Positions 34,249 through 39,140 of a DNA stretch of 39,491 bases are shown here, piece after piece. This DNA comes from an uncultured Pseudomonadota bacterium (GTDB lineage: Bacteria > Pseudomonadota > Zetaproteobacteria > Mariprofundales > Mariprofundaceae). Both the position numbers and the translations under genes were made by a program. The notes beneath the pieces are model-generated. The model searched no databases. It was not told the origin of the DNA and worked only from the letters and a program-made list of their open reading frames with translations. The first letter of the stretch is position 1, and the number at the start of each line of letters is the position of its first letter. The stretch is taken from contig CAJXLC010000020.1 in assembly GCA_913055645.1 (NCBI GenBank), positions 1 to 39,491 of the forward strand, given 5' to 3'.

Positions 34249-35247
34249 ATGAATACGGATATACATAGAATTGAATATATGGTAGATAAGACTATATCTG
34301 TACTACGCAATCTGCGTGAGCAGGCCTATACGCTGGTTGATGGGAACCATTCGCTGCCGGGAAGAATATTCAACGGTTTTATTCTTCTGCTGATTGTCGG
34401 TAATGTCGTTGCCATTGTTCTGGAGTCGGTTGCATCTGTGTACGCTGCCCACCGCCTGTTTTTCGAAAGCTTCGAAACCTTTTCGGTGATGGTGTTCACG
34501 CTGGAATACCTACTGCGTCTGTGGGTTTGCGTCGAGGAAACCCGCTTTTATCGGCCTGTGCGCGGTCGCCTGCGCTATATGTTCAGCTTTATGGCTATTG
34601 TGGATCTTGCCGCAATTCTGCCCTTTTATTTATCCATGTTTACGGCGCTCGATACGCGTTTCTTGCGTGTGTTGCGCTTGCTGCGGGTGTTCAAGCTGAC
34701 GCGGCATTTTCACTCGCTGGAAGTGCTGATGCATGTTATTCGCCAAGAAGGGCCAGTGCTGGCTTCTGCCATGTTTATTTTAATAGTGCTGATTATACTG
34801 GCTTCAGGCGGCATGTATGTGGTTGAACACGATGCCCAGCCGGAAGCATTCGGGAGCATTCCCCGCGCCATGTGGTGGGCGGCTGTCACGCTGACCACGG
34901 TAGGGTATGGCGATACCGTCCCGATTACGGATGCCGGAAAAATGTTCGCTTTAGCGATCACCATTCTCGGTGTCGGCATGGCCGCCATGCCTGCGGGTAT
35001 TATCGCTTCAGGCTTCACGCGTGAGTTGCAGAAACGTCGGAAAATGTACCAGACCAGTGTGCGTGAAGCGCTGGAAGACGGGTTTATCTCGCCTGAGGAG
35101 CAGAAGGATCTGGAAGAAATACGTAAACGCCTTGGTCTGGATCCTGAGGATGCACAGGCCGTTACCCGCGCGGAATTTGCGCTGATGTGCGAGCTCGAGG
35201 AGAGCAGCCACTGTCCGCACTGTGGTAAGAAGCTGTCTGGCTCTTGA
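34249..35247 (+). CDS. Voltage-gated potassium channel family ion transporter
   Basis: An inner membrane potassium channel of the six-helix Kv type. The 332-residue product shows helices S1 to S3 between about 35 and 130, an arginine-rich S4 sensor (TRFLRVLRLLRVFKLTRHF, about 140-160), a pore loop with the potassium filter TTVGYGDTVP (around 215-225) and S6 (MFALAITILGVGMAAMPAGIIASGF), as in KvAP-like bacterial channels. A soluble C-terminus of about 75 residues is charged and ends in HCPHCGKKL, a single CxxC pair that could bind metal. Start codon choice between 34249 and 34279 is open; neither has a good binding site. G+C is clearly higher than in the genes to the left, and a broken partner gene follows. 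Confidence 0.9.
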   Translation: MNTDIHRIEYMVDKTISVLRNLREQAYTLVDGNHSLPGRIFNGFILLLIVGNVVAIVLESVASVYAAHRLFFESFETFSVMVFTLEYLLRLWVCVEETRFYRPVRGRLRYMFSFMAIVDLAAILPFYLSMFTALDTRFLRVLRLLRVFKLTRHFHSLEVLMHVIRQEGPVLASAMFILIVLIILASGGMYVVEHDAQPEAFGSIPRAMWWAAVTLTTVGYGDTVPITDAGKMFALAITILGVGMAAMPAGIIASGFTRELQKRRKMYQTSVREALEDGFISPEEQKDLEEIRKRLGLDPEDAQAVTRAEFALMCELEESSHCPHCGKKLSGS

Positions 35248-35349
35248 CGGGATACTGATTTATTCCATGCTTTTCGAGGGCGTACCGGTGGCGGCAGAAC
35301 ACGCCCATGCCAGGGGTTAGATTCAGATCACCGGACAGGAGGCAGACTG

Positions 35350-35528
35350 ATGTCTAGCATGAGTTTGCAACGTGTTTTCTTTGCGTTTTTTGTATTGCTG
35401 GCGCTATCAATGAATTTCGGTTTCTTTTATGGGCAGACCGACAATGCCTTCACCATAATCCCTATGAGCTGTTTGGAGCGATTGTAATCAACCTGGTTGA
35501 CCATTCTCAAACTCCTTCGACTCTCTGA
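35350..35528 (+). pseudogene. Frameshifted and truncated small membrane protein gene
   Basis: A perfect GGAGG seven bases before the ATG opens a 45-residue frame, MSLQRVFFAFFVLLALSMNF then GFFYGQTDN, that ends in nonsense (AFTIIPMSCLERL). Shifting by one base after DN restores LHHNPYELFGAIVINLV, the continuation expected from a small conserved membrane protein family (I believe DUF6394, often beside potassium channels). The match then stops, at about 35500, where a full-length member would go on for some 60 residues. So one indel plus loss of the 3' half. It reads in the same direction as the channel, 102 bases downstream. Confidence 0.65.
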
Positions 35529-35529
35529 T

Positions 35530-35700
35530 GCTGTGAAATTACATTCACTCTTTTGGCGGGACATGATCTCATTGTCGCTTTCGTAATTTTACCCAAACGC
35601 GGCATTGCTCCATAGAGTGCGAGGCAGATAGCATCAAGGATGGTTGATTTCCCCGCTCCGGTTTGCTTGGCAAACAGCAATCCTATTTCAAAATTCGTTC
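35530..35700 (-). pseudogene. sbcC: Remnant of the SbcC/Rad50-type nuclease ATPase N-terminal region
   Basis: On the minus strand LLFAKQTGAGKSTILDAICL then ALYGAMPRLGKI matches the Walker A region of SbcC. After that the frame breaks; one base over it resumes as ESDNEIMSRQKSEC, again like SbcC (NEIMSRQ..EC). The true N-terminus and the remaining 900 or more residues are missing, and no sbcD is beside it. The remnant ends about where the pseudogene on the other strand ends, suggesting one deletion removed parts of both genes. Confidence 0.6.
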
Positions 35701-35770
35701 CGTGTCGGAAACAGACCAGAATTACAGCCTGTGTGAGATCATGCACGCCACGCTGAAATAGACAGGTTCA

Positions 35771-37174
35771 TTACCACCCTTCATCGCCCGGAACATCTTC
35801 GGGTTCAGCCTTCACCAGTGATTTTGCCACCACCGCATCAATTTCCTGACTGATATAGGCCTCACCCGGCAGAATATTGATGCAACGCAGTTGCGTGCCA
35901 TCGGCTAATGTCTGCTGCCCCAGATCCTTCTGTTTGAAACCGTGACCCAGCGATAGCATGGTGCCATATTGTGCCGTGACGCATGTGCCGTCACCGATCC
36001 CGGCCAGCAGCTCCGCCAGCCCGATCGGTGCGCCGATAATGGTAAATTCTTTTCTGCGTCCTATGCCCATATGTCCGACAACCACCTCGCCAATCGACAT
36101 ACCGGCACGAAACGCAACCATGCCGCCATCGGCCCGTTTTATGGCCATTTTTTCACAGCCTGCCAACAGAGCCATGGCAGCCTTGGCTGCCTGATTCTCG
36201 TGGCATTTGAGATCAAACGGATGGTTGAACACAGCCACCAGCCGCTCACCACTCACATCATCCACATGCCCCCCGAAGGCATGCACAATTTGCTGAAACA
36301 GGGCGAAACAGCGATTGAGCGTGGCAATCACCTGTTCGTGATCATTATGTTGCAGGTAATCGTTAAAATCGATCATTTCGACCACCACCACGCTGACCTC
36401 CCGTTCCAGATGATCATCCAGCCGCGTATTTCTGTCGTATTCATCCGCCACCAGATGCGGACGTTGATAACGCCCATACAGATCAAATACTTTTTCGCGA
36501 TGCTCCAGTTTGGACACCATCTTGTTGAATTGATAAAATGCCTTGCCAAATTCATTGGTCGAGAAAATCGGCAGTTGCACGGCAAAATCACCTGTGGCAA
36601 CACGTTTGGATGCGGCAGCCAGCAGGCGCAGCTGCTTCACAATGCGTCCGCTCATGCCATAAACCAGCAGCGCTGCCAGCAGCGCGATCACTGCCGCCAT
36701 GGCGCTCAGGTGCAGTTTGATTTGTATATCATTTTCATGCCATGATGTGCCGGGGAAATAGACAGCAATGCTTCCCAGCCGGGTGCGATTGAATGTAATG
36801 CTGCTGGCATACCACTTGGGTTGCCCGGTAACCGCAACCGCCTCAGTGGGCAAAGCCGACAAGGATTTCACCGCCGCTGGAATGACACCATCACCAAACT
36901 TCATCGTTTCACCATTGGCCCAGCGCAGATAAATGGCAGTTCCGGGCAGATGCCGCCTGAACATCTCAACCAACTGCTTCACCTCAGGCATCGAGACAGC
37001 AGCCATCGGCATTTTCAACTCATCCGACAACAGACCGATCAACAGGGTGGCCTGCGCCTGCTCACTATGATGCCACGCTTTTTTTTCTATATCGGCAATA
37101 CTGACGAGCATCGCAACGGTCACCATAGCGACCAGAAAAATCGTCATCAGACTCCACAGCGTACGCAACGACAT
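35771..37174 (-). CDS. Membrane-bound class III cyclase homologue with catalytic residues lost
   Basis: The 467-residue product has an N-terminal membrane helix (8-27), a periplasmic sensor of about 130 residues, a second helix (158-176), a HAMP linker (177-230) and a class III nucleotide cyclase domain (about 255-420). The fold is clear (GGHVDDVSGERLVAVFN, FRAGMSIGEVVVGHMG, RRKEFTIIGAPIGLAELL) but the metal Asp pair is Glu266 and Glu310, the base-selecting Lys is Asp306, and the catalytic Asn and Arg are Gly385 and Leu389. It is therefore probably not a working adenylate cyclase; it may signal by conformation. GGGAG precedes the ATG. It is divergent from motA across a repeat element. Confidence 0.85.
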   Translation of the reverse strand: MSLRTLWSLMTIFLVAMVTVAMLVSIADIEKKAWHHSEQAQATLLIGLLSDELKMPMAAVSMPEVKQLVEMFRRHLPGTAIYLRWANGETMKFGDGVIPAAVKSLSALPTEAVAVTGQPKWYASSITFNRTRLGSIAVYFPGTSWHENDIQIKLHLSAMAAVIALLAALLVYGMSGRIVKQLRLLAAASKRVATGDFAVQLPIFSTNEFGKAFYQFNKMVSKLEHREKVFDLYGRYQRPHLVADEYDRNTRLDDHLEREVSVVVVEMIDFNDYLQHNDHEQVIATLNRCFALFQQIVHAFGGHVDDVSGERLVAVFNHPFDLKCHENQAAKAAMALLAGCEKMAIKRADGGMVAFRAGMSIGEVVVGHMGIGRRKEFTIIGAPIGLAELLAGIGDGTCVTAQYGTMLSLGHGFKQKDLGQQTLADGTQLRCINILPGEAYISQEIDAVVAKSLVKAEPEDVPGDEGW

Positions 37175-37205
37175 CGCTTCTCCCTGTTTGTGTAAATAAA
37201 TTAGC

Positions 37206-37373
37206 CTAGGAGGCTGTCGGACTTATGAGAAATCTACTGCGCGGTAGGGACAACGGCCCAACACTCCTGATTTATCGTTGCATAGTTACCACTATGCGCC
37301 TCAAAATCATGCTATTTTTGACTCGTTCCCCTACCTGCTCGCTACGATCACCCTAAGCCCAACAGACTCCTAG
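37206..37373. mobile_element. 168-bp MITE-like element with 20-bp imperfect terminal inverted repeats
   Basis: CTAGGAGGCTGTCGGACTTA at the left and the inverted TAAGCCCAACAGACTCCTAG at the right agree at 17 of 20 positions. The interior has its own inverted parts (GCATAGTTACCACTATGC) and no open frame. The form suggests a non-autonomous mobile or dispersed palindromic element, and a related single end lies at 11240-11259. It separates the cyclase homologue from the motA promoter. Confidence 0.65.
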
Positions 37374-37456
37374 CATATTGTTTGCCAACCTATCCATATG
37401 CCCCACTTAGCTGCGCTGTTCCGCCACGGCAATCCAAACAAACGAAATATTCACTT

Positions 37457-37521: not shown

Positions 37522-38373
37522 ATGGATATGTCAACGATTGCAGGCATTATGGCCGGGATTGGCCTGATTGTGTTATCGATCTTCCTGTCCGCCGTACAGC
37601 CCGGCGTATATATCAACCTGCCCGGACTACTGATCGTGATCGGCGGCACCCTTGCTGCCACCCTGGTCAGTTTCCCTACCCCGGAATTGGCCAAGGTCTG
37701 GCGCATATTGGGTCATGTATTTCGTAACAGGGAATATTCCATTCGAGATGATATTTCTGAAATCGCCCATGCCGCACGTTTGCGGCGGCATGGTGATCTG
37801 GCTCGTATTGAAGATCAGCTGGAACGCATCGACAACCCGTTTTTGAGAACGTCCATCCAGCTGGTGATTGACAACACGCCGCCCGCAGAAATCGTCAATA
37901 TTTTGCAATGGCGCATCAAACGTCTGCGCGAACAGGAACGCGCCGAAGCGCATATCTTCCATACCATGAGCATTTATGCACCGGCCTTCGGCATGTTCGG
38001 CACCCTGGTCGGCATGGTGAATATGTTGTACGGCATGAATGGCCCTGACCTGCTCAATGTCGGTCATAATATGGCCGTCGCTCTGATGACTACATTGTAC
38101 GGGCTGGTGCTATCCAATCTTATTTTTAAACCGATTGCGATCAAGGTGGAGCGGCGCACCGAAAAACGCGCCATGATTATGCGTATGATCGTTGAGGGCA
38201 CTATCATGCTGGCCGGCAATCGCAGCCCTGTATTCATTCGCGAAACCCTGAAATCCTTTTCGGCTCAGCATGATGATGAGCTGCGCGGCGCCAGCCATTC
38301 TTTCACCGACGAATTGCGCCCAACCGGTAAAGCATCCGGCAAGAAAGAACACAACCTGGATGATGATTTCTGA
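37522..38373 (+). CDS. motA: Flagellar stator protein MotA
   Basis: MotA with MotB forms the ion channel that pushes the rotor. The 283-residue product has four membrane helices: two near the N-terminus ([20 protein letters not shown] and [17 protein letters not shown]) and two after a large cytoplasmic loop ([20 protein letters not shown] and [18 protein letters not shown]). The loop carries the charged stretch [23 protein letters not shown] that contacts FliG. I start at ATG 37522 ([10 protein letters not shown]) with GAGGAG eight bases upstream; an ATG at 37456 lies on the promoter. It overlaps motB by one base (TGATG). Family resemblance is closer to PomA-type MotA than to ExbB/TolQ. Confidence 0.94.
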
Positions 38374-39140
38374 TGCATCAACAGAACGGAAAACCAGTCG
38401 ATCTTTATCCCGGTTCCGGCATGGAATCCATTCGTAGCCATATTCTTGCCGATCCCGAAGAACATCTCTATGAAGATGATGGCCAGTCGGTAACACAAGA
38501 CGGGTGGATGGTCGCCTATCTGGATTTAATGACCTTGCTGCTGGCTCTGTTTATTATCATGGGGGCAATCAGCCACTCCAAGGCCGGCGTCAAAATGCAG
38601 GCGCCATCTTCACCGCAGAACACCGCTACCCAAGGCTCGCCCGTCTCGGACAATGCCACGATTCAACGTCAGGGTCAGAAGAAGGGGCAGGAAGAAAGCG
38701 TACAACGCATTCTGGGTAGCAATTCGCTCGGTGGCGTAATGGATTATAAAGCATCGCCGGGGGAAATTCGCCTGCAGATGCATGCCAATATGCTATTTGA
38801 TGCAGCCGGTACGCACCTGAGTAAAAAGGCCATGCGCACCCTCAAAAACATCGCCCGCGTGCTGACTAACTATCAGGGCAAAGTTGAAGTGGCCGGACAC
38901 ACGGATAATACGCCGCTCACCAAAGGTCGCTTTCATTCCAACTGGGAGCTCTCCAGCGCCCGGGCCGCAACCGTTGTAGAAGCATTGATCAATCTGGGCA
39001 TCAGCCAGCGTCGCCTGCACGCCACCGGCTATGCCGATACCAAACCGGTAGCATCCAATGCCACCGCCGAAGGGCGCGCCAAAAACCGCCGGGTGGAATT
39101 TGTTATCGATATGGGGCCGGAGTTTCTCTACACACGTTAG
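38373..39140 (+). CDS. motB: Flagellar stator protein MotB
   Basis: MotB anchors the stator to peptidoglycan and carries the ion-binding Asp. The 255-residue product has a 45-residue cytoplasmic head, one membrane helix with the essential Asp in [16 protein letters not shown] (near 50), a Gln/Ser-rich periplasmic linker, and an OmpA-type peptidoglycan-binding domain (about 140-250) with [30 protein letters not shown] and [13 protein letters not shown]. The first ATG overlaps the motA stop. The ion used, proton or sodium, cannot be told from sequence here. Base composition matches motA and the channel gene. Confidence 0.94.

Follow-up and report, generated by a model that had tools for sequence, protein, structure and literature searches.

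Receptor-type class III adenylate cyclases (Pfam: PF00211), such as the CyaB/Cya2-like proteins with a HAMP domain, share their fold, the HAMP-cyclase architecture and the threonine of the purine pocket with the pseudo-cyclase analyzed here (PSC), which also has a direct paralogue of this type in its own genome; unlike them, PSC has both metal-binding Asp residues, the Lys, the Asn and the Arg replaced. Predicted-inactive bacterial members of this class have so far been noted singly. The mycobacterial homologs Rv1359 and MSMEG_0545 lack a metal Asp – Rv1359 also the Arg – and are predicted to be inactive, but they are transcriptionally regulated (PMC3961136). In contrast, PSC is a membrane receptor that has lost nearly the full set, is linked to a pair of stator genes, and belongs with 18 orthologues under selection to a family of 19 members. 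In the heterodimeric class III cyclases (mammalian C1/C2, NeoR/RGC; PMC8815786), a cyclase-fold partner lacking residues is kept for regulation (the C1/C2 case), and PSC is similar in this respect; however, the protein studied here lacks residues of both active-site halves, and a heterodimer partner is a candidate only. On the side of motility, the second-stator protein MotC of Pseudomonas aeruginosa binds and stimulates the membrane diguanylate cyclase SadC (PMC12288467), and in the same species cAMP affects flagellar rotation in a MotAB-dependent manner (PMC6855561). Like this MotCD-SadC surface-sensing pair, the PSC locus combines a second flagellar stator with a membrane nucleotide cyclase, in our case known from gene adjacency. 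Yet SadC is an active enzyme of another family, whereas PSC appears to be a dead class III cyclase encoded beside the stator.

The window, i.e. the whole stretch of 39,491 nucleotides that was analyzed, is a contig of an uncultured zetaproteobacterium of the Mariprofundaceae. PSC is encoded on its reverse strand (35771..37174, 467 aa), and the open reading frame with its translation, Pfam and AlphaFold2 together give the order N-terminal membrane helix, periplasmic alpha/beta module, second transmembrane helix, HAMP domain, degenerate class III cyclase domain and C-terminal tail. The putative periplasmic sensor module (approximately residues 33–150; 36725..37078) is delimited by AlphaFold2 secondary structure and has no Pfam match. 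The HAMP domain extends over approximately residues 174–226 (36497..36655), with a Pfam match to residues 174–224 above the curated cut-off (E 4e-8). For the cyclase homology domain (residues 258–421; 35912..36403), the Pfam model Guanylate_cyc gives E 1.3e-9 and 38.4 bits, the curated cut-off being 21.9, and phmmer against PDB aligns residues 258–393 with Cya2, CyaB and others. A model built with 27 related sequences (mean pLDDT 82.7, cyclase domain mostly 80–93) shows the class III fold after the long membrane helix, the alpha/beta module, the second transmembrane helix and HAMP; Foldseek target TM-scores against the isolated cyclase domains of CyaB, Cya2, CyaC and RhGC are about 0.76–0.87. 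By domain score and fold, PSC is a member of the class III nucleotide cyclase homology family. A first-pass annotation, made from the letters of the sequence, had proposed precisely this fold behind a retained periplasmic sensor and HAMP domain, and all three parts are recovered here.

The residues were assigned by alignment to solved class III cyclases and 60-odd relatives. The two metal Asp of an active enzyme are replaced by E266 (codon 36377..36379, reverse strand as all codons given here) and E310 (36245..36247), the substrate Lys by D306 (36257..36259), and the transition-state Asn and Arg by G385 (36020..36022) and L389 (36008..36010). These are the five substitutions that had been read from the sequence beforehand. 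The accompanying claim that all main catalytic positions are changed goes one position too far: the substrate-selecting Asp/Thr position is kept as T378 (36041..36043). Misalignment can be ruled out as a cause of the substitutions, as the anchors GHVD..G, G.....G and FT..G line up and canonical neighbours stand in the same alignment. On sequence grounds, we infer that PSC is catalytically dead.

The genome of the window (G000) contains eight Guanylate_cyc genes. The other seven are all D-K-D-T-N-R, which rules out a genome-wide trend to cyclase degeneration. The closest paralogue of PSC within the genome (G000:C7:6585-7889) has the same architecture and, across almost its whole length, about 30% identity; the set to which it belongs occurs in most of the class's 78 genomes. 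All 47 scored paralogues without stator linkage retain D, K, D, N and R, i.e. loss of catalytic residues among them is 0/47. Because these 47 and the seven other cyclases of the genome are canonical, the degeneracy of PSC goes beyond chance. Besides the seven canonical cyclases, the genome has 29 matches to cNMP-binding domains, which makes normal cAMP signalling probable in this organism.

The 18 orthologues of PSC, at 38–71% identity, occur in one genus (coded g11); in an independent scan, the named records with orthologues belong to Mariprofundus and to unclassified Zetaproteobacteria. Within the Zetaproteobacteria, all 19 family members found are degenerate, each in its own way. Column counts were made on 18 full-length members, including the window protein. 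The Lys position holds Q in nine, S in three, R and H in two each, and A and D once each; the Asn position holds A (7), S (5), T (2), E (2), D (1) and G (1); the Arg position holds Q (13), H (2), L (1), E (1) and M (1). The canonical residue is thus found in 0/18 members in each of these three columns. The metal positions are more mixed (n = 18): E10/D6/Q2 at the first, D12/A2 plus E, N, S and G once each at the second, with both Asp residues present in 6/18 alignment rows. The substrate-selecting Thr is kept in 16/18. A search for restored catalytic residues, suggested in the first-pass annotation as a check, finds them in 0/18 orthologues.

The five catalytic columns lie between the 58th and 84th percentile of variability within the domain, whereas the canonical paralogues have zero variability there. 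Only in the cyclase domain are the pseudo-cyclases less conserved than the canonical proteins (mean entropy 1.18 vs 0.97). T378, G309, G381, the GHVD and FNHP motifs and HAMP are conserved in the family. All reading frames are open, with no frame breaks, and dN/dS of the cyclase domain ranges from 0.06 to 0.19 in each of the nine pairs measured; open frames and low dN/dS rule out decay into a pseudogene. The PSC family therefore has the hallmarks of a pseudo-enzyme and not of a pseudogene, with purifying selection on the fold and catalytic positions set free – as anticipated by the early suggestion of selection for the fold without catalysis.

Divergently from PSC, on the forward strand, lie motA (37522..38373, MotC-like) and motB (38373..39140, MotD-like, with plug and OmpA domain according to Pfam and NCBIfam). 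This MotA has about 30% identity with the genome's main MotA (G000:C7:40441-41151), which lies within the flagellar cluster, and 45–54% with MotA homologs of other Pseudomonadota, several of them in flagellar clusters. NCBIfam models score below their cut-offs, namely MotP and MotA for MotA, and MotD as the best model for MotB. By sequence comparison, the pair is a second stator distinct from the main one, and it appears MotCD-like. At the main flagellar MotA gene (L114 8917-11155, G000 contig C7), two MotB-like genes come next.

Among the class's 78 genomes, 22 have the second-stator MotA type (G060 only a fragment of it, where a contig begins), and a cyclase paralogue directly adjoins it in all 21 loci with a readable flank. 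In 17 of these, namely the window and 16 g11 genomes, a degenerate cyclase is encoded divergently from motA; in the other four (G001, G002, G003, G015) the cyclase gene precedes motA in the same orientation, apparently in an operon. The stator-linked cyclases of G003 and G015 are fully canonical, in that of G002 Lys has become Arg and Asn is lost as well, and that of G001 lacks the first metal Asp, Lys and Asn. Besides these two arrangements, the genomic surroundings of the pair vary among lineages; in G045 and G047 it is part of the flagellar cluster, with a TPR gene on one side and a sigma-54 response regulator on the other. Since most of the linked genomes form one related group, the 21 loci can by no means be counted as independent. 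The link to motility had been offered as a natural guess from the motAB neighbour; with the neighbourhood conserved throughout, it is much stronger than that. Outside the class, none of nine loci with related MotA genes has a class III relative of PSC beside it. In some loci of other Pseudomonadota where the related stator pair lies in the flagellar cluster (L139, L142, L143), a putative GGDEF-type (diguanylate cyclase) gene was read by eye after motB (FDPLTQVWNRYR motif); if this call holds, they represent another neighbourhood of stator and nucleotide cyclase.

In the interval between PSC and motA, a search for sigma-28 and strict sigma-54 promoter motifs found none, and loose GG-N10-GC matches are taken as chance. 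The interval contains a dispersed MITE-like repeat of 173 bp with imperfect inverted ends (37204..37376), which has a second copy at G000:C4:32176-32343 and related copies in 30 of the 78 genomes. On the other side of PSC, the intergenic region 35248-35770 contains, on the reverse strand, scraps read by eye as a broken SbcC-type ATPase (GAGKSTILDAICLALYG), an apparent gene remnant.

In a careful tree, the canonical cyclase of G003 groups with the eroded ones of G001 and G002 (100/100), apart from the 19 pseudo-cyclases, which form their own group (100/100). Catalytic residues were thus probably lost at least twice, each time in stator-linked cyclases. Because the deeper stator-linked homologs in G003 and G015 keep all catalytic residues, an active ancestor of the stator-linked cyclases is indicated, and the sequences point to a stator-linked, still active enzyme as the origin of PSC. 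That all stator-linked cyclases, G015 included, form one clade is rejected (AU p 0.023), although this hypothesis was named after the tree had been seen and long branches are involved; with G015 left out, it is not rejected (AU p 0.27). The second-stator MotA proteins of the cyclase-linked loci form one group (97/100), and one ancestral link between cyclase and stator is plausible.

From position 34249 to the end of the window's contig (39491), GC3 is 0.58–0.61 (0.59–0.61 for PSC and motAB), vs 0.34–0.44 in the rest of the contig. This segment carries PSC, motAB and a potassium-channel-like gene with a counterpart of 89% identity in G048; PSC and MotA are closest to g11 genomes, with 71% and 93% identity to G061. 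The adjoining glyS has its nearest relatives within the genus of the window (87% to G009; at most 71% in g11) and is native to the genome. Among the ten other genomes of this genus, only G015 has the second stator, in the operonic form. Since GC3 differs, the nearest relatives belong to another genus and glyS is native, PSC and motAB have apparently travelled together; the simplest reading of this seemingly foreign segment, which is close to Mariprofundus, is a joint transfer of the two. The contig, which ends 351 bp past motB, could also be chimeric at the GC junction (33.9–34.3 kb).

Because the catalytic residues are lost, the protein is kept intact and its gene always lies beside stator genes, PSC most likely signals to the second motor without cAMP. 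We would give about even weight to the full proposal, made by analogy with known systems: a pseudo-enzyme receptor, descended from a stator-linked cyclase that was still active, whose contact with proteins of the second stator would serve to control that stator or to report on it without a second messenger. PSC would then be a dead paralogue of a receptor-type class III cyclase whose membrane and periplasmic sensor, HAMP domain and cyclase fold serve as a signalling body. A periplasmic signal – the stator or proton-motive state, the cell wall or surface contact – might alter the conformation of the HAMP and cyclase domains, and this change could pass to the neighbouring stator by protein contact, favouring its engagement or release. 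The coupling would be analogous to that of MotC and SadC in Pseudomonas, but no second messenger would be made. The longer scenario is somewhat doubtful: a receptor cyclase that once signalled for the second stator via cAMP would at least twice have become non-catalytic and contact-signalling, keeping input and output modules and dropping the messenger.

The main alternative involves a different partner. PSC may heterodimerize with a canonical paralogue, e.g. G000:C7:6585-7889, and so damp or tune cAMP synthesis, as a dominant negative or allosterically in the manner of C1/C2-type heterodimers. We regard this as rather unlikely, although a canonical paralogue of the same architecture exists in this genome and in most genomes of the class, the structural positions of the fold are retained, and class III cyclases without some residues commonly act as heterodimers (PMC8815786). 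The six family members with both metal Asp could even form an active mixed site, and a C1-like donor of the metal Asp only is possible there; for the window protein, with Glu at both positions, such a donor is ruled out, and across the family the metal pair is inconsistently kept. Moreover, the paralogues are just 30–35% identical and their genes, unlike the stator genes, are unlinked to PSC.

The linkage itself may have a simpler cause, namely shared regulation or an ancestral operon, with a receptor role of PSC separate from the stator. The promoters are divergent in most genomes, so that PSC and motAB may have nothing but transcriptional control in common; the genomes are for the most part closely related, and this stator type is never found without the cyclase, which means that phylogeny cannot separate the two. 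Yet the pair persists through changed orientation, changed surroundings and an apparent transfer, and we consider this explanation improbable. Slimmer still are the chances of the nucleotide receptor suggested in the first-pass annotation, whose pocket would bind ATP, cAMP or another nucleotide without turnover. The purine-side Thr in 16/18 members and the retention of several pocket glycines and the strand framework would agree with it, but base and triphosphate are held by Lys, Arg and the metal ligands, and these have been lost and vary even among close orthologues, which would not be expected of a conserved binding site. It is very improbable that PSC is an active cyclase whose metal site is of an unusual Glu/Glu type: Glu can bind metals and a few members keep Asp/Asp, but Lys, Asn and Arg are replaced too, differently in each lineage and with no conserved set of substitutes.

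If PSC is indeed a receptor that acts on the second stator by contact, a second messenger might not always be required where a flagellar stator is coupled to a receptor of the nucleotide-cyclase type. The PSC family offers 19 members under selection, an intact control paralogue within one genome, intermediates of partial loss, stator-linked relatives that are canonical, and a specific partner; it thereby makes testable what role the cyclase fold has once catalysis is gone.
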